IMG/VR virus record: IMGVR_UViG_3300042987_003255
Coordinates: 1 to 21,618 of that record
Length of the DNA: 21,618 nt
Source of the DNA: a virus
Direction: 5' to 3' (one strand)
Shown here: positions 1-21,605 of the stretch, one piece after another
Layout: every line of letters begins with the position of its first letter
How positions within the stretch are numbered: the first letter of the stretch is position 1
Program-made: the position numbers and the translations under genes
The notes under the pieces: model-generated
What the model saw: the letters and a program-made list of their open reading frames with translations, nothing else
Told to the model about the DNA's origin: nothing
Databases searched by the model: none

Positions 1-578
1 GGTTGTTTCAGTTATTGTTTTATAGGGTTTAATCTGAGTAGTTAATGACTTATTATCAATTTTTATCTCCCCATCTATACCCCCTTTCATATCCTTACTT
101 ATACCTTGACCCGATAATATTTTACATGAATCTTCCCCTAGATTTTCGTTAATCACTTTCATGGCAGTATCTTCATTTCTTTTACCTAAACAACCAGACT
201 TTCTCAATGTTTTAAGTATGTTTTCTAAAATTTCTGATTTTTCTTGTCTATTGAAAATAATGTCTTTTGAAGATTCTATTATGGAGAAAAATCTTTTGAG
301 TTCTTTGAGATTGTTTGATGGGTCGTTAGTGAATGAAACAACTTGTTCATTACTTTTTTCAAGTATTTCATTAACGTATTTGTGTATGATACAAAATGAA
401 GTATAAGATGAGGTAAGGTTCATTAATATTGACCTCTGATTATCATTTTCATATAAACCCGATTCATGACCATAGAATAAAGAATTTTTTTCTTTCCAAT
501 GTTCGGGATATGATTTCTTTAAAATGTCTAACCAATTATTAAGATATTCTTTTTTAAATCTTACAAAAGTTTTTTTTT
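1..578 (-). CDS. Partial protein of unknown function, possible PD-(D/E)xK nuclease; joined by frameshift to the SOD gene
   Basis: On the minus strand one frame has no stop from about 609 to the left window edge, where the gene is cut off. The translation looks like a real protein: it begins around TFVRFKKEYLNNWLDILKKS and continues with PEHWKEKNSLFYGHESGLYE. Near the edge it contains GGIDGEIKIDNKSL followed by TTQIKPYK, an arrangement (D ... QxK) that resembles the catalytic core of PD-(D/E)xK nucleases; this is weak inference. The first in-frame ATG is at 421-423, well inside the coding-like part, and no GTG or TTG lies upstream in frame. The frame is entered from the preceding superoxide dismutase frame by a -1 shift in the A run at 570-578. 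It could be a fusion made by programmed frameshifting, a gene with an unusual start such as ATT, or a gene broken by an indel or an assembly error. Confidence 0.6.
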
Positions 579-1424
579 GAATGAATTTGTTGGAGGGAAC
601 AAAAGTTTTTTATAATTTTGTTCTTCTTGGTTTGTACATTTTTTACATTCCAAATTTTCTTTTAGGACTTCTTCTTTTGTATTTGATAATATTTGTTTCA
701 AAACTAATTCCTCATCAAGTCTTGTTTCCAATTTCATGTTTAATAATTTATCAACAAATTCCCAATTTACAACATCCCAAAAATTTTTGATATAATCGTC
801 CCTCTTATTTCTATATTTTAGATAGTAAGCGTGTTCCCATAAATCCAATCCTAATATTGGATATCCACCATTTTCAATATCGTTCATTAATGGGTTATCT
901 TGATTTGGAGTTGACATGATTTTTAATGTGTTATTTTTTGTTACAACTAACCACACCCAACCTGAACCAAATCTTTCTTTTGCTACCTCATCAAATTTTT
1001 TCTTAAACTTGGCTAATGATTCAAAATTTTCTTCAATCTTTTTTAAAATTGTACCTTTAGGTTTTTGAGGTTTTGGTGATAACATTTTCCAAAATAAGGC
1101 GTGATTATATGCACCACCAGCGTTATTTCTAACCGTTTTATTGAATCGAGAAATAGTTTTAACGATTTGTTCCAAATCTAAATCACCGAACTTCTTTTTA
1201 TCTAAAGCTAAGTTCAATTTCTCGACATAACCTTTATAATGTTTGTTATAATGATAATCCATTGTCTCAGGGTCAATGAATCTTTTTAAGGCTGTATAGG
1301 AATACGGTAACTTTTCAATCCCTATTTTTCTCATCTCCGTTATGAAAAATTTCTCACTTTTTTTCTTTTCGATACTTCTTACCTCTTCTTCAATTTTTTC
1401 TATTTTATTTACTAAATTTTTCAT
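561..1424 (-). CDS. Superoxide dismutase (Mn-type) domain protein with N- and C-terminal extensions
   Basis: This 287-residue protein contains a complete Fe/Mn superoxide dismutase domain at about residues 35-228. It would convert superoxide to hydrogen peroxide and oxygen. All four metal ligands are visible: H58 in DYHYNKHYKGYV, H108 in NAGGAYNHALFW, and D194 and H198 in LDLWEHAYY. The GG in NAGG and Q175 in STPNQDNPL are the second-shell pattern of manganese enzymes; iron enzymes usually carry Gln in the first motif instead. The first 34 residues are Lys/Glu-rich and look helical. The tail after residue 229 is about 60 residues longer than usual and contains a CKKC pair. The ATG at 1422-1424 is preceded by an AT-rich leader, and the gene follows the helicase gene by 34 bases, so the two are probably co-transcribed. 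The product is expected in the cytoplasm or the virion; no signal peptide is seen. The frame ends just after an A9 run that may be a frameshift site. Confidence 0.9.
   Translation of the reverse strand: MKNLVNKIEKIEEEVRSIEKKKSEKFFITEMRKIGIEKLPYSYTALKRFIDPETMDYHYNKHYKGYVEKLNLALDKKKFGDLDLEQIVKTISRFNKTVRNNAGGAYNHALFWKMLSPKPQKPKGTILKKIEENFESLAKFKKKFDEVAKERFGSGWVWLVVTKNNTLKIMSTPNQDNPLMNDIENGGYPILGLDLWEHAYYLKYRNKRDDYIKNFWDVVNWEFVDKLLNMKLETRLDEELVLKQILSNTKEEVLKENLECKKCTNQEEQNYKKLLFPPTNSFKKKLL
570..578 (-). other. A9 run, candidate -1 frameshift site at the end of the SOD frame
   Basis: Read on the minus strand, the SOD codons TTC AAA AAA AAA CTT TTG TAA contain an A AAA AAA slippery heptamer four codons before the stop. 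Slipping back one base gives AAA AAA AAA ACT TTT GTA and enters the frame that stays open to the window edge. Homopolymers of this length are also common sequencing and mutation hot spots, so an artefact is possible. Confidence 0.45.
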
Positions 1425-1458: not shown

Positions 1459-3219
1459 TTATTTCTTTGCGTTGATTTGACTTAAGATTTCTTCAACAAA
1501 ATCAACCGAATCTATGTTATCCCCCATAACGGTTCCGATAATAATTTTCTTTTTTGATAGGATATCGTAAATAACGCCCTCAATGGTATTTTCAAATATT
1601 GGATAATAAACAGAAACATTTTTTTTCTGACCGTATCTGAAGGCTCTATCTTCACCTTGAGCGTGTTCGGCAGGTACGAATGATAGGTCGTTCATTATAA
1701 CAGCCTCGGCAGCGGTTAAAGTCAGACCAACACCAGCGGCTTTTAAGTTACCCACAAAAACTTTAATTTTATCATTTTCCTGAAAGTCATCAACGGCCTT
1801 TTGTCTTGCTGGTTTAGATGTGCTACCGTCTAACGAAACACATTGTTTTCCAAAATGTTGAACTAATTTTTTTAGAGTATCTGTGAAATTAGTGAAAATG
1901 ATTACCTTCTTTCCTTGTTCGATAATATTTTCAGCTAACTCTATTGTACTTTCAATTTTTTCTTCGGCAATAATTTGTCTGACCTTTGTTAATTTAGAAA
2001 ATTGAAGTGTTAATGATGATGATTCTTCTTGTTTGGTTCTGTACCAGTCATAATAATCCCCCATCAATTCTTCATACAATCTTGACCTTAATCTCAAATA
2101 AACAGGTGTTATTATTTTATCTGGTAAATCTAATACATCTTCTTTGAGTCTTCTTAGTATCTGATGTGAAGTTCTATTTCTTAATTCTTCTAAATTTGAT
2201 GCTCCACTTGTATTCCAAATTCTTCTGTTACCCCCTACTTTGAATTGATATCCATTACAATATCTAACCACATATGCCATCCAATTTTGTGCTACAGGTG
2301 AATCAATTAAGTTTAATATGTTATAGTAATTTATCGGACGAGATGTAAGTGGTGTACCCGTCAATAACCATAATATTTTGATTTTTTTTGCAAAACTATT
2401 AATGAGTTTAGTTCTTTTGGCTTGTGGGTTTTGAAGATAATGAGCTTCATCAAGAATTATTAAATCAAAGTTTGATTTATCAATAAGACTATTTCCTTTT
2501 TCTTTGGGGTCGTAAAAGTTTTTAACGATATCGTAATTCATTATAACAAAATCATGTTCTAACGAATAGTTTTTTCCTTCAGCGATAAAGATACTTCTAT
2601 CTGTATAGTTTTGAATTTCTCTTGACCAATTTATCTTAAGTGAAGCTGGACAAATAATAAGAATTTTTTTAGCACCTGTTTCTAATGCTGCGATTATTGT
2701 TGAAGTTGTCTTTCCCAAACCCATGTCATCAGCTAAAATATATCTTGTACTTCCTACCAAATTTTCAATCGCAATTTTTTGATGTTCAAGAGGAGGTCTA
2801 TGAGAATATTTTGAATAATCTATTTCAACTTTTTCAACTCTATGTTTTTTTATAATTGCTGTTTTTGGTAACCAAAAATCATGGTTTGTTTCACCGCTCC
2901 ATACTTTACCCCAAATATGATATGATTTGTCTTTCTCTACTAATAATTTTTCAACCCAAATTTGTTCAGGTACACCAACATATAATTTTTCATCGGCAAT
3001 CTTCTGAGCAAAGTAGGGGTCGACATCAACCCATTTTTTTGCTACTTTAGATGGTATCTCATGATAAGTTATAATATAATCAGATTGAGCTCGAGTGGGA
3101 AAAAATTTTCTATTTTTTTCTTTTTGGTATTTTAACTTAAGAATATAATTGTTATTACCGTTGTATGTTTCTAAAATATTAAGAGCCTTTTGTTCTACTG
3201 TAGTTTTTAAATCATCCAT
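1459..3219 (-). CDS. SNF2-family DNA-dependent ATPase/helicase
   Basis: This 586-residue superfamily 2 protein has both RecA-like lobes of the SNF2 family. The first lobe carries Walker A in DDMGLGKTT (about residues 162-170), the Walker B box LIILDEAH (about 252-259) and the motif III-like LLTGTPL. The second lobe carries NLKAAGVGLTLTAAEAVIM and motif VI as GEDRAFRYGQ, the phage counterpart of the DRAHRIGQ signature of SNF2/SMARCAL1-type proteins. About 150 N-terminal residues are unassigned. Such enzymes translocate on duplex DNA and remodel branched DNA or DNA-protein complexes; in T4 the helicase UvsW has a comparable replication and recombination role, but this protein is of the SNF2 type. 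The reading frame extends one codon further to a TTG at 3222, but the ATG at 3217-3219 is the natural start. It is the first gene of the minus-strand group and diverges from the structural genes. Confidence 0.92.
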   Translation of the reverse strand: MDDLKTTVEQKALNILETYNGNNNYILKLKYQKEKNRKFFPTRAQSDYIITYHEIPSKVAKKWVDVDPYFAQKIADEKLYVGVPEQIWVEKLLVEKDKSYHIWGKVWSGETNHDFWLPKTAIIKKHRVEKVEIDYSKYSHRPPLEHQKIAIENLVGSTRYILADDMGLGKTTSTIIAALETGAKKILIICPASLKINWSREIQNYTDRSIFIAEGKNYSLEHDFVIMNYDIVKNFYDPKEKGNSLIDKSNFDLIILDEAHYLQNPQAKRTKLINSFAKKIKILWLLTGTPLTSRPINYYNILNLIDSPVAQNWMAYVVRYCNGYQFKVGGNRRIWNTSGASNLEELRNRTSHQILRRLKEDVLDLPDKIITPVYLRLRSRLYEELMGDYYDWYRTKQEESSSLTLQFSKLTKVRQIIAEEKIESTIELAENIIEQGKKVIIFTNFTDTLKKLVQHFGKQCVSLDGSTSKPARQKAVDDFQENDKIKVFVGNLKAAGVGLTLTAAEAVIMNDLSFVPAEHAQGEDRAFRYGQKKNVSVYYPIFENTIEGVIYDILSKKKIIIGTVMGDNIDSVDFVEEILSQINAKK

Positions 3220-3265
3220 CAAAATTTACAAAATCCAATTTCATGAATAATAAGTAAAAAACAAA

Positions 3266-3276: not shown

Positions 3277-3792
3277 ATGTCTACTAATAAAGTTCCAATT
3301 ACAAGGTTAGGTAAATTTTTCGGTGCTGAAGATTTCGCACTCGATATTGAAATGGGAAGAGAATGGTTAGAGGGTGATATGAATTTCACTCTGGTTTTAT
3401 ATAGGGTTGATAGATACAAAACTAAAACAGATGATGTATATGGTGAAACAGTGTCAGATGGGATAAAGTTTTTTCCACCTGTTGAGTTTAAAGGTTTTGT
3501 TTATATTGCTCCCCCTGAAAATAAAAATATGGGTAACTCAAAAGTAGAACAGATGGAACCTGGTAATTTAAGAGTTTCTGTTTATCAATCTCATTTAGAT
3601 GAATTAGGTATTGAAATTTCTTTTGGTGATTATATTGGTTATTACGAAACAGAAACAAGAGTTAGATATTATTCAGTTGCGAATGACGGAAGGGTAGTCT
3701 CAGATAATAAACATACTTACGGTGGTTATAAACCTTATTATAGGACTATAATCGCCACACCAGTTACAAATAACGAATTCAGAGGGTTATAA
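3277..3792 (+). CDS. Unrecognised phage structural protein, possibly a neck component
   Basis: This 171-residue soluble protein opens the plus-strand structural block. It has no signal peptide or membrane segment and is rich in beta-type sequence with many Tyr and Gly residues. A stretch reading LYRVDRYKTKTDDVYGE followed by FFPPVEFKGFVYI looks like the opening of a small beta-domain virion protein, but I cannot name the family. T4-type phages carry neck genes (13, 14) and the tail-completion gene 15 upstream of the sheath gene, and this gene lies in the equivalent place, so a head-tail connector role is a positional inference. Its stop codon overlaps the next start by one base (TAATG at 3790-3794), which indicates translational coupling to the metallopeptidase gene. 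Confidence 0.45.
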   Translation: MSTNKVPITRLGKFFGAEDFALDIEMGREWLEGDMNFTLVLYRVDRYKTKTDDVYGETVSDGIKFFPPVEFKGFVYIAPPENKNMGNSKVEQMEPGNLRVSVYQSHLDELGIEISFGDYIGYYETETRVRYYSVANDGRVVSDNKHTYGGYKPYYRTIIATPVTNNEFRGL

Positions 3793-4394
3793 TGAAAATT
3801 TTAATAAACGAACATCAATTTAATTTGATAAAAGAACAAACTGAAGGTTTAGAATCTTTTGTGGACACTATTATTAATAAGTTTCCCGAAGCTAAAGATT
3901 ATAAAGATGTTATTTTAAAATCGATTATAAATTCAGGTTGTAAAAAAATTGAGTTTGCACATTTTAAATTTCCCGCTTCGGGAGTTGCTATGACCAACGG
4001 TGTGATGATAAATAAAAATATGTTAGGTCAACCACTATATAATCTCCTTTTTGTGATATTTCACGAAATTGCCCATTCTTACCAATATAGAAAGTTTGGC
4101 GAGGAAAAAATGATGGACTTATATACTGACAATGTTTCAATAAAAGACGCGGCAAAATTTATGAAAGAAGTTGAAATTGTAGCGGATGAATTTGCAACTA
4201 GAAAATGTAGAGAATTCATAAAATTGGGCCTCTTAAAAAATGTTACATTCTCAGGTTTTTATAATCAATTACCATTAGTACATTTTGAAAGTTTCATCAA
4301 AAGTATTAAAGACAAACTTGAATCAAAAAATTTAAAAACAATTGAAGAAAAAACATCTTTCATGTATAACATGATAAAATCTGAAATTGAATAA
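3792..4394 (+). CDS. Putative zinc metallopeptidase (HExxH)
   Basis: This 200-residue protein contains the zinc-binding motif HEIAH (H91, E92, H95) in a hydrophobic helix reading LLFVIFHEIAHSYQY. A second helix with E128 and D132 in EVEIVADEFATRK is a plausible source of the third zinc ligand, as in gluzincin-type peptidases. There is no signal peptide, so it should act inside the cell or as a virion part. The start overlaps the previous stop by one base, and the next gene begins 8 bases downstream, so it sits in the structural operon. The substrate cannot be read from the sequence: maturation of a head or tail protein and cleavage of a host protein are both possible. The N-terminus MKILINEHQFNLIKEQ is short and amphipathic and is not part of the catalytic core. 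Confidence 0.7.
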   Translation: MKILINEHQFNLIKEQTEGLESFVDTIINKFPEAKDYKDVILKSIINSGCKKIEFAHFKFPASGVAMTNGVMINKNMLGQPLYNLLFVIFHEIAHSYQYRKFGEEKMMDLYTDNVSIKDAAKFMKEVEIVADEFATRKCREFIKLGLLKNVTFSGFYNQLPLVHFESFIKSIKDKLESKNLKTIEEKTSFMYNMIKSEIE

Positions 4395-5730: not shown

Positions 5731-8700
5731 ATGGCAACAAACAGCAAAGTATTCGTGTCACCTGGTGTGTACACATCTGAAAGAGATTTAAGCTTTGTAA
5801 CTCAAAGTGTTGGTGTTACGACTTTAGGTATAGTTGGTGAGGCTTTAAAAGGTCCAGCTTTCGAACCTATTTTTATTAGTAATTACAGCGAGTTCGAAAC
5901 TTATTTCGGTGGAACAAACCCTGAAAAATTTATAAACACACAAATTCCAAAATATGAAGCATCATATATAGCGAAGGCGTATTTGCAACAATCCAACCAA
6001 ATGTTCATGACAAGAATATTAGGTTTATCGGGTTATGATGCGGGTCCTTCTTGGTCTATTCAAACAATTGCAAATGTGGATTCTACAACAGTGGGATTCC
6101 AAAAAGATTGTACGAGTATACCTGATTACATGTCACAAACATGTACATTAAGTTGTACTGGTAGAACTGTAACAATCAGTGTAGATTTCTCTGGTTGTAC
6201 AAATCAAGATGGTAGTATATCTTACTTAACATCTTTCCCTGCGGAAATTGATTGTTTACTTACAACACCATATACAAAATTTAATGGTGGTACCTCATCT
6301 TTAAAGAGTGATATTAATTCTCAATTGTTATCAGTATTTGCAAACAATAGTTTGTCAGGTACTTCAATCAATTATTGGGGTAGCATTCCAACTGACGATT
6401 ATAACATTTTAAGTACAACATTTACAGGTGAAACTAACGTATTCGGTGTTCCGAATGTTTCGGCTGATTACACTGATTACACATCACCGTATAACGACCC
6501 TTGGTATTATGCGTTGTTTGATAACTTTAGTGGTAACAGTTACTCAGGATATTCATTCTGGACTGTAGTAAGTAACTTAGTATTGTTACCTACAACAGCA
6601 ACAACTACTACTACAACATCAACTTCAACTACTACGACAACAGTTAATCCTTGTTCAACTACAACAACAACTGTACCTTCAACAACAACTACAACTACTG
6701 TTACAAACTGTTTCTCAGGAACTGTAACAGGTGTTATATACTTGTATTCTGGTGATAGTTATTCTAACTATAATAACTTAGTAGTAGGTACATTGAGGTC
6801 AAGAGGTTTATCAACTTATAGTTCAACAGAACACGGACCTAATTATGAAGTAGACCAACTTAGTGCTGTGACTTTGGATTTCTCTGGTACTTATTCAGCG
6901 GTAACTAAGAATCCTTTCTCAACATTTGGTGTTAATGTTACTAATAAAAATGGTAAAACATTTGCTTTCAAAACATCACTTCAATCTTCAGATGCTACTT
7001 ATGCACCTAAAGTATTCGGTGTAAGTAACTTCTCAAAACCAAGAACTGAAACACCTTTATTTATGGAAGAAACTTTCCAAAGTATGTTAAACTGGGCATA
7101 CAAGAAAGGATATATCAGAGGTTTGAGACAAGAATTAATCGCATTACCAAGTGCAAGAAGTAACGATAGTTCAAGTATCGGTTTCTATTTAGAAAGATAC
7201 CAAGCACCAGAAAGTCCTTGGGTTGTTTCTGAATTAAGAGGTACAAGTGTTTACAGACTCTTTAAATTCATATCAATAGCTGATGGTAACAGTGCTAATG
7301 ACCAAATAAAAATCTCTATGATTAATATGTCATTCTCTAACCAAACATTTGATGTGTTAGTAAGAGATTTCTATGATACTGATGATTCACCTGTGGTTTT
7401 AGAGAAATTCACAAACTGTTCAATGGACCCAGGTCAGAATAACTTTATCGCTAAGAAAATAGGTTCTTCTAATGGTGAGTTTGCTTTAAACTCGACTTAC
7501 ATAATGGTTGAGATGAATGAAGACGCTCCAGTGGATGCGTTACCTTGTGGTTTCGAGGGTTATACTTTCAGAAACTATGATGGTGTTAATTCTCCATTCC
7601 CTATCTACAAAACTAAGTATGACTATCCAGGTGAAGTTGTATACGACCCACCATTTGGTTATACAACAGGTGCTGATAATCCTACAGTAAGTGCAGGTGA
7701 TAATGTAAGAAGAACTTACTTAGGTATCTCAAGTAGTGTTGGATATGATTTAGATTTCTTCCAATATGTAGGTAAACAAAATACAAACACAACATGTGAC
7801 CCTGTTCCTCAAGAATGGTCTTACATGTCTAAAGGTTTCCACATGGACTCAGGTGCGACAGTAGTTACAATTCCTGATGTATATTCTACTTCAGGTAAGA
7901 CAATGTTCGCAGTAGGTGTGGCTGATTTCAGAAATGACCCTGATAGTCAAGAAAACCCTTACTACAGATTATATGCGAGAAAATTCTCGTTGTTAGTTCA
8001 CGGTGGTTTCGATGGTTGGGACATTTATAGAGAGTACAGAACAAACTCAGATAGATTCCAAACTGGTTCAAGTGGTTTCTTAGAAGGTGCTTGTGTTTCA
8101 GATAGATATCCAAACGCATCAGGTGCTGGTATGTTCAGAAGAATCACAATAGGAGACAACACTCAAGATTGGTCAAATACTGACTACTACGCTTACTTGT
8201 TAGGTCAACAAACGTTCTCTAACCCTGAAGCTGTGAACATCAACGTGTTTGTAACACCAGGTATTGATTATGTAAATAACAGTAACCTTGTTGAAGACGC
8301 AATCGAAATGATTGAGTATAACAGAGCTGACTCTCTTTACGTATGTACAACTCCTGACTATAACATGTTTGTACCTTCTACAACAAACTCAGCGGATTTA
8401 ATTTATCCACAAGAAGCTGTAGATAATTTGGCAAACACTGGTATAGATTCAAACTATACAGCTACTTACTATCCTTGGGTATTAACAAGAGATACCGTTA
8501 ACAACACTCAATTGTATATTCCAGCAACAGCTGAAGTTACAAGAAACTTGGCGTTGACAGATAATATCGCTTTCCCTTGGTTCGCATCAGCGGGTTACAC
8601 AAGAGGTATAGTAAACTCAATAAAAGCTAGAAAGAAACTCACTCAAGAAGACAGAGATACTTTATACGTTGGTAGAATAAACCCTATCGCTACTTTCTCT

Positions 8701-9069
8701 GACGTAGGTACAGTAATTTGGGGTAATAAAACTCTTCAAATTGCAGAGTCTGCTCTTGATAGAATCAATGTAAGAAGATTACTTTTACAAGCTCGTAAAT
8801 TAATATCTGCGGTGGCTGTAAGGTTATTATTCGAACAGAATGATGCTAAAGTGAGACAAGATTTCTTAGATGCGGTTAACCCTATCTTAGATGCTATAAG
8901 AAGAGACAGAGGTCTTTACGATTTCCGTGTAACAGTTTCTTCTTCAGCTGAAGACTTAGATAAAAACCAATTAGTAGGTAAGATTTACATCAAACCAACT
9001 AAAGCATTAGAATTCATAGATATCGAATTCTTGATTACACCAACAGGTGCATCATTTGAGAATATCTAA
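5731..9069 (+). CDS. Tail sheath protein (gp18-like), enlarged
   Basis: This 1112-residue protein forms the contractile outer sheath that drives the tail tube through the host envelope. The N-terminus is typical of sheath proteins: VFVSPGVYTSERDLS, then TTLGIVGEALKGPAFEPIFI and a YFGG turn. The C-terminal third (from about residue 790) carries the conserved core, including DWSNTDYYAYLLGQQTF, VNINVFVTPGIDY and the final LDAVNPILDAIRRDRGLYDF and GKIYIKPTKALEFIDIEFLI. T4 gp18 has 659 residues, so this protein carries several hundred extra residues in the middle, which should form surface domains. A Thr-rich tract at residues 288-327 with cysteines C308 and C327 marks one domain border. The start at 5731 is preceded by AT-rich sequence without a Shine-Dalgarno. 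A hairpin terminator follows the stop codon. Confidence 0.95.
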   Translation: MATNSKVFVSPGVYTSERDLSFVTQSVGVTTLGIVGEALKGPAFEPIFISNYSEFETYFGGTNPEKFINTQIPKYEASYIAKAYLQQSNQMFMTRILGLSGYDAGPSWSIQTIANVDSTTVGFQKDCTSIPDYMSQTCTLSCTGRTVTISVDFSGCTNQDGSISYLTSFPAEIDCLLTTPYTKFNGGTSSLKSDINSQLLSVFANNSLSGTSINYWGSIPTDDYNILSTTFTGETNVFGVPNVSADYTDYTSPYNDPWYYALFDNFSGNSYSGYSFWTVVSNLVLLPTTATTTTTTSTSTTTTTVNPCSTTTTTVPSTTTTTTVTNCFSGTVTGVIYLYSGDSYSNYNNLVVGTLRSRGLSTYSSTEHGPNYEVDQLSAVTLDFSGTYSAVTKNPFSTFGVNVTNKNGKTFAFKTSLQSSDATYAPKVFGVSNFSKPRTETPLFMEETFQSMLNWAYKKGYIRGLRQELIALPSARSNDSSSIGFYLERYQAPESPWVVSELRGTSVYRLFKFISIADGNSANDQIKISMINMSFSNQTFDVLVRDFYDTDDSPVVLEKFTNCSMDPGQNNFIAKKIGSSNGEFALNSTYIMVEMNEDAPVDALPCGFEGYTFRNYDGVNSPFPIYKTKYDYPGEVVYDPPFGYTTGADNPTVSAGDNVRRTYLGISSSVGYDLDFFQYVGKQNTNTTCDPVPQEWSYMSKGFHMDSGATVVTIPDVYSTSGKTMFAVGVADFRNDPDSQENPYYRLYARKFSLLVHGGFDGWDIYREYRTNSDRFQTGSSGFLEGACVSDRYPNASGAGMFRRITIGDNTQDWSNTDYYAYLLGQQTFSNPEAVNINVFVTPGIDYVNNSNLVEDAIEMIEYNRADSLYVCTTPDYNMFVPSTTNSADLIYPQEAVDNLANTGIDSNYTATYYPWVLTRDTVNNTQLYIPATAEVTRNLALTDNIAFPWFASAGYTRGIVNSIKARKKLTQEDRDTLYVGRINPIATFSDVGTVIWGNKTLQIAESALDRINVRRLLLQARKLISAVAVRLLFEQNDAKVRQDFLDAVNPILDAIRRDRGLYDFRVTVSSSAEDLDKNQLVGKIYIKPTKALEFIDIEFLITPTGASFENI
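6592..6711 (+). repeat. Thr-codon repeat tract inside the sheath gene
   Basis: About 120 bases consist mainly of ACA/ACT codons with occasional TCA. They encode three Thr runs separated by VNPCS and VPS and ending in VTNC. The tract is low-complexity DNA that can change length by slippage, and its protein product is an extended, possibly glycosylated linker. It lies between two sheath surface segments. Confidence 0.8.
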
Positions 9070-11992: not shown

Positions 11993-13933
11993 ATGTTACA
12001 AGATAAAGGTCAAGAAAAATTAATTGAAGATAAAATTTATTCAATTGATACCTACATTCAAAGTATTGGAGATATGTTCTCCAATATACTTTCTAACATT
12101 CCATTACCAGGGACGGGTTTTTACGATGAACTAAATAGTTCATTTTCGGTTATGGAATCGACTGTTTCCAAACTTGCATCTCAATTCGGTGGTACTCGAG
12201 ATTTGGCGGTTGCGATTAAACAAAGTATGGCTGAGTCGGCTGCGAGTGTAATACAATTGGGGGGTACATTACAAGACATTGCAAACATTCAATTAAGTGT
12301 TGTAAAGGCAACTCAAACTCAAACAATACTTAACAAAGATTATTTCCAAGATTTATATGCCATAAGTTCTTTGGTAAGTGACACGGGTAAAGTAAGTGCT
12401 GAGACAACTAAAGAAATTGTTTCATCATTTATTAATGCTGGTTATGGTTTATATAACATTAGTAGTGAAGTTTCAACAATTATTAATAACGCAAAAGAAT
12501 TGGGTGTTACCACAAATTCGGTCTTTAAACAGGTTGCGGAAAATATGAATAAGTTAGCCCTTTATAATTTCAGTGACGGTGTACAAGGTATGGCCAAAAT
12601 GGCAGCTCAGGCGGCCGCTTTGAGAATCGATATGAAAGATACTTTAACACTAGCCGACCAATTATTCAAACCTGAAAAGGCAATTGAAATGTCAGCGGCA
12701 TTCAGAAGATTAGGTGTTAGTGTGACTGAGTTGTTAGACCCATATAAGTTGATGGATATGGCAAGAAATGACCCTGAAGAATTACAGAAGTCTATTTTAA
12801 ATGCCACAAAATCATTGGTTGATTTTGATGAGAAAAATCAAAAAATGAGAATATTACCTGGTGCTCAAGGACAATTAAGAGAATTGGCTGAAGCTATGGG
12901 AATGCCTGCTGAAAAATTGGCACAAATGGCATTGAATGCGGGTGATTTGGAAAGAAAAATGAGTCAAATAAGATTCCCATCACAATTTGCGGATGAAAAA
13001 ACTCGAACAATGATTGCTAATATGGCACAAATGAGTGGTGGGTCATATGTTGTACAATATGAGGATTTAAGAGGTGAAAAAGTTACTAAGTTAGTATCGG
13101 AGTTAAAAAAAGAAGATGTTGAGGCATTGCAAGCTATGAATGTTAATATGGGTAAGAGTGCAATGGAATTACAAAGAGAAGCTAATGGATATTTGAAAAG
13201 TATGGCTTTTGATTTGGCGGCACAAAGGGGTGTTGTACCAAGGGCGTTAGCCGCATCTCGAGGTTTCGAAACGATGCAAAAAAGAATTTATGAAACTGTA
13301 AAACCAGCATTGGATATACCAGCCACAGTTTTAGGTTTAAAAAGAGATGAAAGAACAGGAATGTACCAATCTACAGGTTCTGTAGAAAGGATAGTGGATA
13401 GTTTTGAAAAACTTGTTAGTGAAAAAGTGTCAGAAGCAATAAAAAGTGGTAAACAAATAGATTTTGGGGATTTGTTCAAAGGTATAAGAGAAAAATTGGA
13501 TAAGGCAGGGATTAAATCTGACGCAAGTATTGAAGATTATTTGAAAAAGGCTAAAGAAACTATCAAAAATGTTTATGACCAATATAAACCAAGTGTTAGT
13601 TTTAGTAACCCAAGAATGGATGAAATTTCAAATAGGTGGACTCAAACTAAAACTCAAGTTGCGGCACCAACTATGAAATCCGCGTTAGGTGCGGATAAAG
13701 TTGCGATGTTAGAAGCACCTACTCAGTCAAGAATTAGAGGTGACCAACAGTTAGGTACAGTTAAGGTAGATGGAAATATAAATCTAACAACACCAACAGA
13801 CGGAATGATGAAAGATGCCATAGTAAGAACCTTAGATAGAAAAGAGGTTGCCGATAAAATAACTGCGATAGTATTATCGTCAACACAATTAAACGAGACG
13901 TTAAAAGGAAGTGGTAAAGCTAAAATTAGTTAA
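11993..13933 (+). CDS. Tail tape measure protein (gp29-like position)
   Basis: This 646-residue, mainly helical protein has the composition of a tape measure: rich in Ala, Lys, Glu, Met and Gln, with few aromatic residues. The segment from about 100 to 300 has repeated amphipathic helices with YQ/FQDLYAISSLVSDTGKVSAE and AKMAAQAAALRIDMKDTLTL, typical of phage tape measures. T4 gp29 has 590 residues. Tape measures run inside the tube and set its length at about 0.15 nm per residue, which would predict a tail near 100 nm. A short C-terminal beta segment (KVDGNINLTTPTDG) probably contacts the baseplate hub. No clear membrane segment is seen. The position directly after the candidate chaperone gene supports the assignment. 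Confidence 0.75.
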   Translation: MLQDKGQEKLIEDKIYSIDTYIQSIGDMFSNILSNIPLPGTGFYDELNSSFSVMESTVSKLASQFGGTRDLAVAIKQSMAESAASVIQLGGTLQDIANIQLSVVKATQTQTILNKDYFQDLYAISSLVSDTGKVSAETTKEIVSSFINAGYGLYNISSEVSTIINNAKELGVTTNSVFKQVAENMNKLALYNFSDGVQGMAKMAAQAAALRIDMKDTLTLADQLFKPEKAIEMSAAFRRLGVSVTELLDPYKLMDMARNDPEELQKSILNATKSLVDFDEKNQKMRILPGAQGQLRELAEAMGMPAEKLAQMALNAGDLERKMSQIRFPSQFADEKTRTMIANMAQMSGGSYVVQYEDLRGEKVTKLVSELKKEDVEALQAMNVNMGKSAMELQREANGYLKSMAFDLAAQRGVVPRALAASRGFETMQKRIYETVKPALDIPATVLGLKRDERTGMYQSTGSVERIVDSFEKLVSEKVSEAIKSGKQIDFGDLFKGIREKLDKAGIKSDASIEDYLKKAKETIKNVYDQYKPSVSFSNPRMDEISNRWTQTKTQVAAPTMKSALGADKVAMLEAPTQSRIRGDQQLGTVKVDGNINLTTPTDGMMKDAIVRTLDRKEVADKITAIVLSSTQLNETLKGSGKAKIS

Positions 13934-13955: not shown

Positions 13956-16900
13956 ATGCCAAGTTATTTAACTTTCCCATCAACGGAGCAATATAGAAAA
14001 GTATTAATGGCGAGAAATCTCGCACCATATACTGTGCCTGGTGTTTATACCCCCAATGTTAACCAAATTAATTATGAGGTTGTTTTGAGGGATGAAAGTG
14101 TTGTGGATTCCCCTGATGAGTTAATAGCTAAAGACCCATTTGCTGATTTATTATATCCCTTGAACCCATTTGGACCTGAAGGTGGTTTTAGTAAAACCAT
14201 CAATGCGGGTGGATTGGCGAATACAAAATCGAATTTAGGGCCATACGATGTACAAGATGCGAAATTACCTGAACTGAGTTTACCTTACGAGAAACAAATA
14301 CCAACTAATAATGTTTATACTAGTGGTAGAGAAATACAGTTATATTCGGTAGACAGTGATTTATTTAATGGTAATCCGAGTTCCAAAAATTTATTTATAC
14401 CTTATTACGAGCCATGGAGTTTTGTTCCATCAACCTATACGGCATATGATATATTACTTCAGGATGACCCAAATGGTGATATGGGTAAGTTATCACAAGA
14501 TTCTTTTATTGCTCAATTAGGTGCAAGACAATTAAAGAGTTTATTACAAGATAACAACGCCACACAATCACAAAACCGTTTGAATTCATTTAATGCGAAT
14601 GTTTTAAGAGGTGTTGGTGCTGGTGCAACTTCATATTTAAGAGGTACTAGTAATCAACCATATACATCGTATAAAATAACTTTAGATGCCGATTATTTAG
14701 CGGGAAATTATTTAGGTAGATTATCGGGTTCTTATTCACCATCATCAACAATACCTGGGGATTATTTTGAGGATGAACAATATCTAAGATATCCTGGAAC
14801 GGTAAATCAAATATCTAACGCACTTAACATTAAATCGATATTAGGTCCGATTAATCAATATTTGGGTCCTAAGGTTTTCAGAAGACAAACACCATCAGAA
14901 GTATTCATACAAAATACTGGGTCGGGACAAGTATCTCAATTATTTATTAGTTTAAACTATAACAAATACAAACCTAACTATAATAGAAACCTTTTACAAG
15001 ACATTGGTCAAGGTGCTCTAAATGTATTGGGTTTATCAAGCCAAGTTGATGTTCCAACAAATTATTATGTGGGTTCATCGGTACAAGACCCAACTTTTAT
15101 TGAGTCCCCATTAGGACAAGTACCTTATGATAGTTTGGGTAGAGATACACAATCAATTGTTGTTGGTCCTACCGAAATGTCAAATCTATTCGAAAACAAC
15201 TCAACGAATGCCTTAAAATTTGGTTTGAATGGTAAGGCGTTTGAAGATGGTGCGGGATTATCTGGTGGATTGGTATGGAGTTCTCCTAAATATAGTAACG
15301 CAGGTTATAGAGCGTTAATTGGGGGAGACCAAGGAACTGAAAGTCCATCATTTAATGAGGTTAAATCTAAAATAGATACTGAATTAAGTATTGAATACGG
15401 ATTTAAAGAAGGTTCGATATTAGATATTACTCAAAAACTTTTGGATTCAACACCAAGAGGTGGAAAAAGATTATCACACGTTGGTAACGCAATCAACCAA
15501 CTGAGTAAAGTTTTTAATGACGGTTATAAGGAAATTACTAAAGGTTCTAAAGTATTATCATATGTAGACCAAAATGGTGCTGTTGTAGGAACAGAATATT
15601 GTAGAGTATTCACTAAAGATACTCCATATTATACATACCAAGATTTACAGAAGTATGATGGTAATATTAGAAAGTTCACTTATTCCGTATTGGATAATAC
15701 CTTCAATTTGAATATCGCACCACTTAAAACAACATCAACATCAAGTTCAACAAATATTGTTAATGGAAGTGTAAAAAAATATATGTTCTCAATAGAGAAT
15801 TTGGCTTGGAGAACTTCTAATAGGCCAGGTTTTACCGTTTTAGATTTACCTGAGTGTGAAAGAGGTCCGAATGGTGGTAGAGTTATGTGGTTTCCTCCAT
15901 ATGATTTAGCATTTTCAGAAAACATTACACCTAATTTCGAATCAAATAACTTTTTAGGTAGACCCGAGCCTGTTTACACATATAAGAATACTCAAAGGTC
16001 AGGGACTTTAAGTTGGAAAATAGTTGTAGACCATCCTTCAATATTAAATGTTATTGCGGATAAAGAATTAAAAAACTTAACCGACCAACAAATTAACGGT
16101 ATTGTTGATTCATTTTTTGCGGGATGTAAGAAATATGATATCTATACGTTAGCGGCTAAATATAATACAATACCTATAAATGAATTGTATGCGATACAAG
16201 AAATAATTTTAAATGAAACCAGTTTAAAACCCGAGGACGTTGAAAGTATTTCTAATGTGGCATCAAAACAAACTGAAGATATTAAACAACAACCACCAAG
16301 TGTTGATTTAACAAAATATAATGGTTTGGCATATTATTTTGATAATGATTCTCCTGACCCAAATTCAACATCGACAACAACAACGGCTGATTATCTTACA
16401 TTGTATAATGAGTATATCGGAAATAAATCGACATACGAGAATAATGCGCCAACAGAAAGTGATAAATCAAATATTGATAATTTCTTCACAAGTATTATTG
16501 AGACGAACTTTAAACAAAACGATGATTTATTAAATGATTTAGTGAAACTTTTTGAAGGTAATAGTACAGCAGATGGTAAAACAAATGCGTTTGTTACAAT
16601 TACTTTACAAGGTAGTGCTTCGGCACCAGCCACTGCGGGATACAATCAGAATTTATCTGAAAGAAGAGCGTCATCGGTAAAAAACTATTTTACAAATTGG
16701 AATAGTGGTAAACTTGCTAAGTATATAACAAGTAATAATTTGGTTATACAAACATCGGGGACTGGTGAACAAGTACCTAATTTAAAAGTTCCTAATGCAC
16801 CATATATCACGGCAAGTAATTGTACTGATTTGAAACCAAACGCAACACAGTACGAAAAAATCTACTCACCAAATGCAATGGCATGTAGAAGAGTATCTAT

Positions 16901-18875
16901 GAGTATTTCAAATCCTAAGATAAATCCACCAGAAAAAAACCCAACAAATGATAATACTCAAACAACTCCAACTTCAAAAACACCACCTGGATACACACCA
17001 GCACAGCCAGTTCCTGCTAATATATCAACTCAACAAAAATTAAGAGATGGTATTAGTAAGAAAATTTTAAGAACACTATTATCAGAATGTAGTTATTTCG
17101 AGGCAATTCAGAAAGAAGACCCAATGTTTTATGGTTCTATTCAAAAACAATTAAAACATTTTAGTCCTGCTTTCCATGCGATTACGCCTGAAGGTTTGAA
17201 CTCAAGATTAACTTTCTTACAACAATGTACTAGACCTGGAGATACTATCCCAACAATAGGTTTGGACGGTAAACCAAAATACACTAATTCAGTTAATACA
17301 AGTTTTGGTGCTCCTCCTGTTTTAATATTGAGGATAGGTGACTTCTATAATACAAAGATAGTTCCAACATCATTGAATATTCAATATGAACCGTTAGTTT
17401 TGGATATTAATCCTGAAGGTATTGGTGTTCAACCTATGATAGCAAAAATATCTTTAAGTTTTAACTTTGTTGGTGGTTCAGGGTTGAAAGAACCCATTGA
17501 CCAATTACAAAATGCGTTATCATTTAATTATTATGCCAATACAGAAATGTACGATGAAAGAGCTGACGCTACAGACCCATCATATAAAAAAATAGATGCG
17601 GATGTTGTTAAAGCGATTTTAGACCAATCAAAAACATTGGGAGTAAATAATGTGAATAACAACATTAAAAATGATGGAGGAAAACCAATTGGTGACGTAG
17701 TTCAAATTGTACAATCGGATGCTGGTGCAAGTGGAAATACGACCTACCAAAAAATTATGGATGGTTTATTAACAAATGGTCAAAACTATATTAATTCGGT
17801 TTATAACAAAATAGTACAATTAACAAAAGATAATAACTTCCAAGTTTATACTTGTTTTATACAAGATAGGAAATACTCAAGTGGGGTAACAAAAGAATTT
17901 ACAACACCGAAAGATTTAAAGATTGTAGGTAAACCATACGACATAGAGTCAAGAATTACAAAATTATTTGATGATATTAATAATGATATTGATAATGTTA
18001 AGAACGATGGGGACGATGGATTAGATTTTATCAAACAATTGTTTGTTCAAAACTATTCTAAGAACTCAGTGAAGAAAGTTAAGGAAAGTTTAAAAAATGC
18101 TGTCAATAAAAATAAAACAGATATTATAAATTCAACAACTTCAGTTTTAAATGAGATAACGAATTCACAAACTGATTTAGTTAGAACATTTAGAAAATTA
18201 GATATTATTGATTCATTAACCGATGGTTATATTCAAACAAATCAAAGTGCTGAAATCTATAATTTGACAGCAACAACTGAAGTACAATCAGGCGGAACAT
18301 ACGCAGATACCTACGCAGAATTAGTTGGGGATTATGATTTGGCCGTTGATAGTTTAAGTTCCTTTTATAACGATTTGAAATCATCAGGATTTATTGAGAT
18401 AGAATATAACACTGATAATTTAAGACTTTATGATGATGGAAATACATTGGGTGTTGATTCTTGTTGTATAAATCAAGAAAAGAGATTTTATATGGCAATG
18501 TCAAAAGTGATACTTGACCCTAATAAATTGAATTCATTTATAGAAGAAATTATACCTAAAGATATTCAGACACAAAATGTCGGTGGAAAATCTATTTTAG
18601 ATTTCACCAAAGATTATTTTTCACAAAAAAGAAATTACTATCAAAGAGAGTATACAGCAGAACAAAAATTTGTGAAAAATTTTGAAACTACAAGTAATTA
18701 TAAAGACAAGTACAAAACTTGGAAACCATTTGTTTCGGGTAAAGTTCGAAAATTCTTGTTCAGCGGTTATGTTGATGGAACATCCACACAAGTAACTTAT
18801 TTACAGAATTTATATAAAGACGGAAACTCAAATACAAGTGACCAAACATTCAACGGAAAAAATAAACTTAACTAA
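13956..18875 (+). CDS. Giant baseplate protein with an embedded OmpA-like domain
   Basis: This 1639-residue protein is the largest in the window. The first 600 residues are Asn/Tyr/Ser-rich structural sequence I do not recognise. A segment around 640-720 (GRVMWFPPYDLAFSENITPN, then TYKNTQRSGTLSWKIVVDHP) looks like a compact baseplate domain. A Ser/Thr linker at 804-810 leads into an OmpA-C-like module at about 865-985: GYNQNLSERRASSVKNYF (Y896), GTGEQVP and CRRVSMSI (R978, R979), the peptidoglycan-binding signature. A Pro/Thr linker (985-1025) follows, then a domain at about 1030-1185 with GAPPVLILRIGDFYNTKIVP and PMIAKISLSFNFVGG, similar in pattern to hub or tube-adaptor domains of contractile systems. 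The C-terminal 400 residues are helical. It probably belongs to the baseplate and may contact the cell wall. The stop overlaps the next start by one base. Confidence 0.7.
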   Translation: MPSYLTFPSTEQYRKVLMARNLAPYTVPGVYTPNVNQINYEVVLRDESVVDSPDELIAKDPFADLLYPLNPFGPEGGFSKTINAGGLANTKSNLGPYDVQDAKLPELSLPYEKQIPTNNVYTSGREIQLYSVDSDLFNGNPSSKNLFIPYYEPWSFVPSTYTAYDILLQDDPNGDMGKLSQDSFIAQLGARQLKSLLQDNNATQSQNRLNSFNANVLRGVGAGATSYLRGTSNQPYTSYKITLDADYLAGNYLGRLSGSYSPSSTIPGDYFEDEQYLRYPGTVNQISNALNIKSILGPINQYLGPKVFRRQTPSEVFIQNTGSGQVSQLFISLNYNKYKPNYNRNLLQDIGQGALNVLGLSSQVDVPTNYYVGSSVQDPTFIESPLGQVPYDSLGRDTQSIVVGPTEMSNLFENNSTNALKFGLNGKAFEDGAGLSGGLVWSSPKYSNAGYRALIGGDQGTESPSFNEVKSKIDTELSIEYGFKEGSILDITQKLLDSTPRGGKRLSHVGNAINQLSKVFNDGYKEITKGSKVLSYVDQNGAVVGTEYCRVFTKDTPYYTYQDLQKYDGNIRKFTYSVLDNTFNLNIAPLKTTSTSSSTNIVNGSVKKYMFSIENLAWRTSNRPGFTVLDLPECERGPNGGRVMWFPPYDLAFSENITPNFESNNFLGRPEPVYTYKNTQRSGTLSWKIVVDHPSILNVIADKELKNLTDQQINGIVDSFFAGCKKYDIYTLAAKYNTIPINELYAIQEIILNETSLKPEDVESISNVASKQTEDIKQQPPSVDLTKYNGLAYYFDNDSPDPNSTSTTTTADYLTLYNEYIGNKSTYENNAPTESDKSNIDNFFTSIIETNFKQNDDLLNDLVKLFEGNSTADGKTNAFVTITLQGSASAPATAGYNQNLSERRASSVKNYFTNWNSGKLAKYITSNNLVIQTSGTGEQVPNLKVPNAPYITASNCTDLKPNATQYEKIYSPNAMACRRVSMSISNPKINPPEKNPTNDNTQTTPTSKTPPGYTPAQPVPANISTQQKLRDGISKKILRTLLSECSYFEAIQKEDPMFYGSIQKQLKHFSPAFHAITPEGLNSRLTFLQQCTRPGDTIPTIGLDGKPKYTNSVNTSFGAPPVLILRIGDFYNTKIVPTSLNIQYEPLVLDINPEGIGVQPMIAKISLSFNFVGGSGLKEPIDQLQNALSFNYYANTEMYDERADATDPSYKKIDADVVKAILDQSKTLGVNNVNNNIKNDGGKPIGDVVQIVQSDAGASGNTTYQKIMDGLLTNGQNYINSVYNKIVQLTKDNNFQVYTCFIQDRKYSSGVTKEFTTPKDLKIVGKPYDIESRITKLFDDINNDIDNVKNDGDDGLDFIKQLFVQNYSKNSVKKVKESLKNAVNKNKTDIINSTTSVLNEITNSQTDLVRTFRKLDIIDSLTDGYIQTNQSAEIYNLTATTEVQSGGTYADTYAELVGDYDLAVDSLSSFYNDLKSSGFIEIEYNTDNLRLYDDGNTLGVDSCCINQEKRFYMAMSKVILDPNKLNSFIEEIIPKDIQTQNVGGKSILDFTKDYFSQKRNYYQREYTAEQKFVKNFETTSNYKDKYKTWKPFVSGKVRKFLFSGYVDGTSTQVTYLQNLYKDGNSNTSDQTFNGKNKLN

Positions 18876-19198
18876 TGAGTGATTTATATTTCAATCGGTA
18901 TAGAAACTTTCTTATTAATGGAGAACAAACAGTTGTTCCATTTGTAAAAGTCCCTGCAAAGGCAACTGATAAGAAATATTTTTATAAAGTTGGTGTAAGT
19001 AGGTTGGATAAAGTAAGCCAAGAGTACTATGGAACACCATTATTTGGATGGATTATCCTTTTGGCTAATCCTGAATATGGGGGATTGGAGTGGAACATTC
19101 CTGATAATGCTCTATTGACAATTCCATTTCCTTTAATAGCTTCAGTACAAGATTACGAAGCTGAGTTAAATAATTACTTCTTCTATTATGGTAGATAA
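18875..19198 (+). CDS. Baseplate wedge protein gp53-like (LysM-like fold)
   Basis: This 107-residue protein shows the LysM-like pattern of T4 gp53-type wedge proteins: YKVGVSRLDKVSQEYYGTPL, then FGWIILLANPEYGGLEWNIP and a closing LLTIPFP. Related small phage proteins (tail protein X type) share the order of YxV...D.I...YYG.P..W..I..AN and a final IP strand. T4 gp53 helps assemble wedges around the hub. The start codon overlaps the stop of the giant baseplate gene (TAATG), and the next gene begins 11 bases before this one ends, so all three are translationally coupled and likely made in linked amounts. Confidence 0.8.
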   Translation: MSDLYFNRYRNFLINGEQTVVPFVKVPAKATDKKYFYKVGVSRLDKVSQEYYGTPLFGWIILLANPEYGGLEWNIPDNALLTIPFPLIASVQDYEAELNNYFFYYGR

Positions 19199-21605
19199 CA
19201 ATGAAAATGTATTAGTAGAATATGACTATCAAAACGTTATATTAGTTGACCCCAACAAAGTTTTTGATAGTTTAGGTAACGTCAAAGAAAGGTTATTGAA
19301 ACCTGAAAATTTGGTGTATTATGCTAATTTGGAATGCTCATTGTTTCCAAGAACAAGACTTGCGGTTTCATCAAGTGGGTATTATAATAATGAAACAATA
19401 TCTATTGCGACTATTAATTTCATGAAACCTGGAGGTAAGAAGTTTTTAGATAATTCTTATTTAGATGAAATTACAGGATTAGATAGTACGAGGGGATTAG
19501 GACAAAATCAGACAATAGAAAGGGCATCAGATGTTTCCAAAAGTACTAACTCAAAAGAAGATTATAATACAACTATTGGCAATCCGACAAACAATAATTT
19601 ACTTTTAATTGAAAGTATAAGTATTGATACTCAATTGAACTTATTTCCGTTGGTTACAATCGAAATGCAAGACATTAGAGGACGTGCATTATTTGAACAA
19701 GGTGAAAATTCACCATACGCCGTATTTTTTAATTATCCGTATCCACTTTTTTATTTAACGGTAAAAGGTTATTTAGGAAAGGCAATTAAATATCAATTAG
19801 CATTGAAAACGTTTAATGCAAGATTTGATACTTCAAGTGGTAACTTTAGAGTTACCTGTACATTTATGGCTTACAAATATAATGTTTTAACACAATTGAA
19901 AATGGAATATTTGAAAGCGATTCCATATATGTACAAAAGTAATTATAAAATATCCCCATCGAATACAAGTGGTACTCAGACCGCATTAAATCAAGTTGGT
20001 AATACTATTGGAGATGTTGAAACTAAAATAACTTTTAGGGGGTTAGAAAAAATTAAAGAGGTTTATTCTGATTACAAATCAAAAGGTTTAATTCCTGATG
20101 ACTTTCCTGTTATCACATTACAAGATTTAATTGTGAGATTAAATAAATTAGAGGAAGATATTTTAAATAGTTTTCAAACTGCGGATTTAATGCCATTGAC
20201 AGATGGTGAAAATTTCAATTTAAATTTGGATGAATTTGCAAATAAAGTATATTATAGTGGAGATAAGTCATGGTTCAGTACTTATTTAGATGAAACTAAT
20301 TTTTTCATTCAAAAAAATACTAATCAGAAAGTTTACACTTTCAAAAAAGAAATATTAGAAGGAAAGAATAAAGATAATAGAGAGATTGCAATAACGAATT
20401 TGAAAGCGTTAATTGATGTTGCAAAAAAAGATTTAGGTATTAATAAAACTTTTGGTAGCCAAGGTCAATACACTATTGGAAAACAAACTTTTCCATCTTC
20501 AATACCATTTTCAATCACGTATGAGAATATACAAGTTAGAATGTCAGTAGATGATATTGACTGGGTGGCAACGTACCAACAAAGAACTGGGAGAGAAGGA
20601 ACGGCAAGTGAAATTAGTGATTTTATATCTAAAAGTCAAACACAATTAAATTCAATAAAGCCAGATGGTAATCAGTCAAACAATTATTATTGGTTTACTT
20701 TTGAAGGTACTAATAATTTTGTGGGATTAATACAGATAATGAGAAATCTATTATCGGTTAAATTGGATGAAATACAAGGAAAACTAGCAACTATTTTATC
20801 AGAAAGACTTTCAGTTAAAGATAAATTTTTAGGATTTAAACCAACAATAAAAAATGTCATTGCTGTTATTTTGGCTAGTGCCGAGGCGTTTCTAAGGATT
20901 ATGAATGATGTTCACGAAACAGCTTGGGATAAAAGAGAAAATAAGGATAGAATAAACGCGATATTAGGAGGAGATAAGTCAGCGGTATCTGTTGATGCTA
21001 AACAATCAGTAACAACAACTGACGGAAATTTAATACCTATATATCCTTGGCCACAATATTATATAGAAACAAATGATAGTAAAGGTAGGAATTTTGAATT
21101 AACATACCCTGGAGACCCAAAAGTGGCTCAAAAAACTAAAGGATATTTATTCGATGTTTGGCCTGAAATCGAATTTGTTGAGGAATATATTAGAGGTAGA
21201 GTAACCACAAAAAATATACCTAGCGTTAGTACAGATTCGGTAAATTCTGACCAAATAATAAATAGAGTATCATTGAATGCTATTGATTTTCCAACGTCAA
21301 ATGCTTTATTCAGAAATCGACAAGACGTTAAATTCTTTTTTGAACTTTGGGAGAGAGTTTATTTATATGCTAACTATGAAAGATTTAGAGGTCCTGATGC
21401 CGAAAATAAAATCCAAGAAATTTTAGCCGAAACCGAATTTATCAATATAAAAAATTCGTTAGGTGTAGATTCCCCTTTTTTGATTAAAAAACTTAAAAAC
21501 TATGGATTTAATGCGACAAATATTATTCCATATCTTTTTAACATTACAAATCAAGGTATTGGGGAAAGTTGGCAAAAATATATAAGAGATATTTTTGTAA
21601 CATGA
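19188..21605 (+). CDS. Large baseplate protein, hub-like, family not resolved
   Basis: This 805-residue soluble protein follows the gp53-like gene with an 11-base overlap. A beta-rich segment at about 138-235 reads LLLIESISIDTQLNLFPLVT, then IEMQDIRGRALFEQGENSPY, PLFYLTVKGYLGKAIKYQLA and FDTSSGNFRVTCTFMAYKYN. The order of a membrane-proximal ring-like strand set with K-GY-GKA and a GNF..TC.F strand resembles hub proteins of the T4 gp27 type, but I cannot confirm the family. The middle is helical (about 300-600), with a probable coiled segment RNLLSVKLDEIQGKLATILS. The C-terminal part begins YLFDVWPEIEFVEEYIRG. No enzyme motif is visible; in particular no lysozyme or peptidase active site was found. 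The stop TGA overlaps the next ATG. Confidence 0.6.
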   Translation: MVDNNENVLVEYDYQNVILVDPNKVFDSLGNVKERLLKPENLVYYANLECSLFPRTRLAVSSSGYYNNETISIATINFMKPGGKKFLDNSYLDEITGLDSTRGLGQNQTIERASDVSKSTNSKEDYNTTIGNPTNNNLLLIESISIDTQLNLFPLVTIEMQDIRGRALFEQGENSPYAVFFNYPYPLFYLTVKGYLGKAIKYQLALKTFNARFDTSSGNFRVTCTFMAYKYNVLTQLKMEYLKAIPYMYKSNYKISPSNTSGTQTALNQVGNTIGDVETKITFRGLEKIKEVYSDYKSKGLIPDDFPVITLQDLIVRLNKLEEDILNSFQTADLMPLTDGENFNLNLDEFANKVYYSGDKSWFSTYLDETNFFIQKNTNQKVYTFKKEILEGKNKDNREIAITNLKALIDVAKKDLGINKTFGSQGQYTIGKQTFPSSIPFSITYENIQVRMSVDDIDWVATYQQRTGREGTASEISDFISKSQTQLNSIKPDGNQSNNYYWFTFEGTNNFVGLIQIMRNLLSVKLDEIQGKLATILSERLSVKDKFLGFKPTIKNVIAVILASAEAFLRIMNDVHETAWDKRENKDRINAILGGDKSAVSVDAKQSVTTTDGNLIPIYPWPQYYIETNDSKGRNFELTYPGDPKVAQKTKGYLFDVWPEIEFVEEYIRGRVTTKNIPSVSTDSVNSDQIINRVSLNAIDFPTSNALFRNRQDVKFFFELWERVYLYANYERFRGPDAENKIQEILAETEFINIKNSLGVDSPFLIKKLKNYGFNATNIIPYLFNITNQGIGESWQKYIRDIFVT

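Follow-up and report, generated by a model that had tools for sequence, protein, structure and literature searches.

A Bacteroidota-type OmpA-like module in a giant baseplate protein of uncultured contractile-tailed phages

A module of 213 residues within a giant phage baseplate protein almost certainly belongs to a distinct Bacteroidota subfamily of OmpA-like domains – the one found as the C-terminal domain of PorE-related TPR/PD40 proteins – that has become fixed in one of the core baseplate proteins of uncultured phages with contractile tails. The stretch of DNA analysed here, referred to as the window, comprises 21,618 nucleotides of one strand (positions 1 to 21,618 of IMG/VR record IMGVR_UViG_3300042987_003255). 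The giant protein (1639 amino acids; 13956–18875, plus strand), recognised from its open frame, gene order and relatives, carries the module at residues 780–992 (16293–16931, plus strand). OmpA-type anchoring of contractile machines is known from the inside, in the TagL protein of the type VI secretion system (T6SS); the phage baseplate context is new, and our search of open-licence papers found no OmpA-type domain in a phage baseplate. The module also defines a Ser-variant OmpA subfamily across phages and cells. Taken as a whole, the best explanation – to which we give very nearly an even chance – joins the capture of a Bacteroidota domain by the baseplate protein with a wall-gripping role at the tube tip.

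The module is a well-supported member of the OmpA-C-type domains. Pfam OmpA matches the whole 1639-residue protein at E=7.7e-6 and 26.6 bits, just below the cut-off of 27.2, while the isolated module scores 30.8 bits against the same curated cut-off (PF00691); among the relatives, 44 of 56 also give a Pfam OmpA match. Against a profile derived from cellular Bacteroidota sequences alone, the window's module scores 99.4 bits and the median over 168 phage modules is 61.5, whereas shuffled phage modules score no more than 11.5. Together, these values argue that the match is not due to chance. In the opposite direction, a PDB search with the relatives' profile picks out domains of Pal, PorE and OmpA (E ~2e-5). 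Structure prediction, which the earlier note had proposed as a check, bears out the fold: modelled with 56 relatives, the module reaches a pLDDT of 92.8 and a pTM of 0.91 in AlphaFold, and its top PDB match in Foldseek is the C-terminal domain of PorE (6TOP; E=7.8e-4, probability 1.00). OmpA-C structures rank next, some of them solved with meso-DAP ligands. Foldseek probability is 1.00 to both 6TOP and 5NHX, with target-normalised TM scores of 0.49–0.54.

The limits of the module differ from those first proposed, 16500–16920 (residues about 865–985). The module does lie there, but its real start is some 70–85 residues earlier, at about residue 780, so that it also includes a YFDNDSPDPN strand and loop and two helices; in the relatives' alignment, conservation begins at the YF(D/E/H)NDxP motif at residue 794. 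Of the Thr- and Pro-rich linkers suggested on both sides, the downstream one (residues 992–1021; 16929–17018, plus strand) is real and among the least conserved stretches of the protein (mean identity 0.27, pLDDT <50). The upstream Thr run, STSTTTT (residues ~803–809), belongs to the folded module instead: AlphaFold is confident there, cellular homologues have a similar stretch, and a variable linker is located before residue 780. In one relative (L051, 3840–3960), an in-frame TAA splits the giant gene in the N-terminal part of the module, with both halves readable.

The module region appears to split a single domain, because both of its flanks match the C-terminal domain of the proteins that occupy the same gene position in Flavobacterium phage immuto and Microcystis phage Mel-JY01. 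The first half (residues 600–760; 15753–16235, plus strand; mean column identity up to 0.84) matches it with an hhalign E-value of 6.3e-6; the second (residues 1030–1210; 17043–17585, plus strand; up to 0.86) gives a colinear but weak match, at E=0.024. The homologues in immuto and Mel-JY01 are syntenic and do without the module, in keeping with its earlier reading as an insertion into a large contractile-tail baseplate protein. In an AlphaFold model of residues 476–1212, the flanks mostly remain below pLDDT 60 and the module stays at ~90. A Foldseek search with this model returned one weak match, a baseplate chain of AFP (6rao_G, E=0.074), which we take as a hint only, as the modelled flanks are too uncertain.

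The surroundings of the gene are those of a contractile-tail baseplate. The window encodes, in this order, a sheath, a tube protein (PHROG 4542), a gp26-like protein (PF12322), a tape-measure-like protein, the giant protein, a gp53-like protein (PHROG 7145) and a hub-like protein – the same order as in immuto and Mel-JY01. The upstream neighbour, a tape-measure-like or gp29-like gene (11993–13933, plus strand), probably acts as the tape measure, judging from its position and a weak PHROG baseplate hub match (E=0.013); the downstream one (18875–19198, plus strand) encodes a gp53/LysM-like baseplate wedge protein (PHROG 7145, E=9.7e-5). A place after the presumed tape measure and before the gp53 and hub genes is that of tube initiators (gp48/gp54, Afp7/Alg7). 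Gene order and a half-significant hhalign profile match thus make the giant protein likely to be tube-initiator- or hub-like. Among ten long relatives, nine also have gp25, a wedge protein.

Several other features of the window deserve mention. The tail sheath itself (5731–9069, plus strand; 1112 amino acids) has a large insert ahead of its conserved C-terminal sheath domains, and within this insert a long run rich in Thr, TTTTTTSTSTTTTTVNPCSTTTTTVPSTTTTTT. The hub-like frame (19188–21605, plus strand) ends at 805 amino acids, 13 bases before the contig end, and complete homologues mostly have ~2050–2400; this reflects either a contig-end error or a real truncation. A complete iron/manganese superoxide dismutase (561–1424, minus strand; PF02777, E=3.2e-41; PF00081, E=2e-22) adjoins the tail genes, an SNF2-type helicase (1459–3222, minus strand; PF00176) lies upstream of them, and a 200-residue protein (3792–4394, plus strand) has a zinc-metallopeptidase-like HEIAHSY motif and a weak DUF3920 match (E=4e-4). 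By eye, an SNF2-like protein on the minus strand of another contig (L084) is interrupted by a long intein-like insert.

Residue conservation within the module was counted in a profile alignment of distinct phage modules, 80 cellular modules and the canonical OmpA domains encoded in a single Bacteroidota genome. The three motifs first noticed in the sequence – GYNQNLSERRA (895–905), GTGEQVP (~935–941) and CRRVSMSI (977–984) – are all present, as is GSAS (residues 886–889; 16611–16622, plus strand) in place of GxTD. The latter puts Ser889 where the Asp that binds diaminopimelate (DAP) would stand, a position held by Ser in 165 of 166 phage and all 80 cellular modules and by Asp in 11 of 11 canonical domains of that one Bacteroidota genome. 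As phage and cellular modules have the Ser in common, the GSAS-type loop is a trait of the subfamily rather than a loss specific to phages, and the profile match to a single set of cellular proteins backs its description as a Bacteroidota-type variant. PorE contacts the DAP residue through the side chains of Asp576, Asn584 and Arg591 (PMC7192894); Ser889, Asn897 and Arg904 have the same spacing, 8 and 7 residues. With the Asp ligand replaced by Ser, the canonical mode of DAP binding would not apply.

The other pocket positions are retained in the helix YNQNLSERR (residues 896–904; 16641–16667, plus strand), which has the complete Nx2LSx2R motif (Asn897, Leu900, Ser901, Arg904). Its Asn, Leu and Arg occur in 98–100% of modules – in phages, Asn897 in 165/166, Leu900 in 164/166 and Arg904 in 166/166; in the cellular set, 80/80, 79/80 and 80/80 – although the mean column identity of the module is only 36%. 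The corresponding residues of TagL, Asn494, Leu497 and Arg501, are required for wall binding (PMC8253398). The key Arg is not R979, as the earlier note had it: in OmpA-family structures, the DAP-binding Arg is that of LSxxR, here R904. The first strand and loop, YFDNDSP (residues 794–800; 16335–16355, plus strand), follows a YFxNDxP motif conserved in the 168 phage and 80 cellular modules, Asn797 being nearly invariant and Asp798 mostly conserved, and has no aligned counterpart in canonical OmpA. Gly937–Glu938 of GTGE (16764–16769, plus strand) is at least 90% conserved in alignment A1 (Gly 162/164, Glu 161/164). The segment AMACRRV (residues 974–980; 16875–16895, plus strand), with Cys977, Arg978 and Arg979, is the counterpart of the NRRVEI strand, and its Cys977 and Arg978 (module positions 198 and 199) are found in 162 of 162. 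A further residue is specific to the phages: Cys956 (16821–16823, plus strand), present in 162 of 163 phage and none of the 80 cellular modules. It forms with Cys977 (16884–16886) a pair nearly invariant in phages and absent from cells, possibly a disulfide.

The cellular relatives were reached through a query modelled on a suspected OmpA subfamily of Bacteroidota in which YFHNDEP and GFASP occur. This served as a lead only, and the conclusions are based on real sequences retrieved. We name the domain 'FASP'; it is OmpA-like, lies at the C-terminus of Bacteroidota TPR/PD40 proteins and is marked by the motifs YFHNDEP and G(F/Y)ASP. The search gave at least 496 genomic loci, of which the best 80 were used; where their titles name a phylum, they are Bacteroidota, mostly Flavobacteriales and Crocinitomicaceae. 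All 80 match the phage profile at 58–98 bits, mostly over nearly the whole module. A first-pass scan of genome contigs with the phage module had given 49 pattern matches, none of them confirmed. Across 148 Bacteroidota genomes, only six places exceed 60 bits (68–92), all of FASP type, and other OmpA-type matches stay at or below 36, so that the full-length match stands clearly above that of other OmpA domains. Like PorE and CHU_0125, the cellular FASP proteins contain TPR and PD40 regions, but they score far below the cut-offs of those families. In a profile scan, the giant protein shows neither N-terminal TPR nor a PD40 propeller, nor does it match the NCBIfam PorE family; as a whole protein, it is neither FASP nor PorE. 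A quick tree separates phage and cellular FASP domains, as one group, from canonical OmpA (SH-aLRT 99); within the group, phage and cellular sequences fall on opposite sides. The weak support for the phage side (37) and the long branches leave the direction and number of transfers unsettled; capture from a Bacteroidota host is nonetheless the likely course.

Among the viral loci retrieved, the module occurs in one protein only. The giant protein has >597 relatives in IMG/VR, on contigs of up to 317 kb, and all 224 that span the site have the module (245 ORFs of the family were examined). With members on contigs of >300 kb among those checked, the module thus characterises this large, uncultured phage group as a whole. 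All 98 viral loci found with the module or its cellular counterpart are this same baseplate protein. The module is constant in these relatives and absent from the homologues in immuto, Mel-JY01 and L408. The nearest sheath relative, LR756508, has no module within 38 kb around its sheath gene; a related baseplate domain lies outside that stretch. Searches with tblastn gave no match for the whole protein in INPHARED, nor for the module consensus in INPHARED and PLSDB. As to hosts, a Shine–Dalgarno motif precedes 2% of 579 phage genes, compared with 37% in Mel-JY01 and 12% in immuto. Weak use of this motif is typical of Bacteroidota; together with the kinship of the module, it suggests Bacteroidota hosts for the phage group.

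What the module does is a matter of graded probabilities. The mechanism that we favour, at somewhat below even probability, is that the tube tip takes hold of the cell wall after contraction; the near-invariance of Asn, Leu and Arg in a module that otherwise diverges fast speaks for it, as does the architecture of the source family, which points to the wall. If the giant protein is part of the tube-initiator/hub layer, sheath contraction would carry its six (or three) copies into the periplasm along with the tube tip. There, the module would grip the stem peptide of peptidoglycan – or the wall complex that carries its cellular relatives – and so hold the tip at the wall during DNA passage. Arg904 and Asn897 would bind the carboxylate and amine of diaminopimelate, and the Asn797–Asp798 loop might take over the part of the absent Asp. 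Peptidoglycan anchoring by the module is a plausible hypothesis; the narrower version, in which it locks the injecting tube tip onto peptidoglycan with a Ser-for-Asp pocket common to an uncharacterised Bacteroidota family, is more tentative. Against a wall grip speak the Ser for Asp in both phage and cellular members of the subfamily, the poor model of the flanks (pLDDT <60), the placement in the tube-initiator layer by gene order and a half-significant match, and the structural use of LysM, another fold of wall-binding type, in AlgoCIS. As regards the earlier suggestion that the module might replace lysozyme, profiles recognised no hydrolase in the hub homologues L040 and L006, both from the window's group, where a missing profile match does not amount to absence.

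The strongest rival, a close one though less likely than not, sees in the module a structural connector: a host-derived fold reused to bridge tube initiator and wedge, whose pocket, if used at all, holds a loop of another virion protein, and which never touches peptidoglycan. There is a precedent in LysM domains: the tube initiator Alg7 of AlgoCIS, a Bacteroidota system, has an outward LysM contacting the wedges (PMC8894135), and LysM also occurs in gp16 of A-1(L) and gp53 of T4 (PMC10966104). Fixation in 224 of 224 relatives is what would be expected of an essential part, and the absent DAP-binding Asp and the phage-specific invariant Cys pair fit a connector too. Yet the pocket residues persist while the rest of the module diverges, which suggests a conserved small ligand – an argument weakened in turn by the fact that some of these residues also cap a helix. 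An improbable reading is molecular mimicry: the module would imitate the C-terminal part of one of the host's TPR/PD40/OmpA proteins and dock on the complex which that protein binds, in the outer membrane or in type IX secretion/gliding, taking it as receptor or entry port. The similarity is indeed specific to one PorE-like subfamily rather than to OmpA domains generally, but this subfamily has no known partner here, receptor-binding proteins seldom sit in the core of a baseplate, and the TPR and PD40 domains are missing from the phage protein. Convergence on, or chance resemblance to, OmpA with no shared ancestor has only the low identity to solved OmpA domains (11–25%) in its favour and is rejected as exceedingly improbable in view of the end-to-end profile match far above shuffles, the confident AlphaFold fold and the matches of the phage profile to cellular loci.

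Set beside known systems, the module is closest to the cellular FASP domain, with which it has in common the whole-length match, the YFxNDxP loop, the Thr-rich stretch, Ser for Asp, the YN..L..RR helix and the closing strand (SVYS..A..ERRIEI); the cellular proteins, however, carry TPR and PD40 and no Cys pair, whereas the phages have the module alone, inside a baseplate protein. The PorE C-terminal domain of the type IX secretion system (T9SS) is the best PDB match in fold, with equal spacing of the three DAP-contact positions, but has Asp576 where the phages have Ser889. At the level of the whole protein, immuto gp235 and the 2255-residue protein of Mel-JY01 have the same gene position and a C-terminal domain matching the flank of the giant protein, without an OmpA module. 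In immuto, the protein at the hub position (L082, 22503–25319) has at its C-terminus a D-Ala-D-Ala carboxypeptidase domain of VanY type (PF02557, E=6.6e-10), a type of domain not recognised in the hub homologues L040 and L006 of the window's group. The LysM domains of Alg7, from an extracellular contractile injection system (eCIS), and of T4 gp53 likewise place a fold of wall-binding type on an inner baseplate protein, albeit another fold, and there contact wedge proteins. TagL, OmpA and Pal, finally, have the OmpA-C fold and the NxxLSxxR motif, and in TagL such a domain anchors a contractile machine, the T6SS, to the wall (PMC8253398); but they belong to a different subfamily, retain the Asp ligand and anchor the attacker's own machine from inside.
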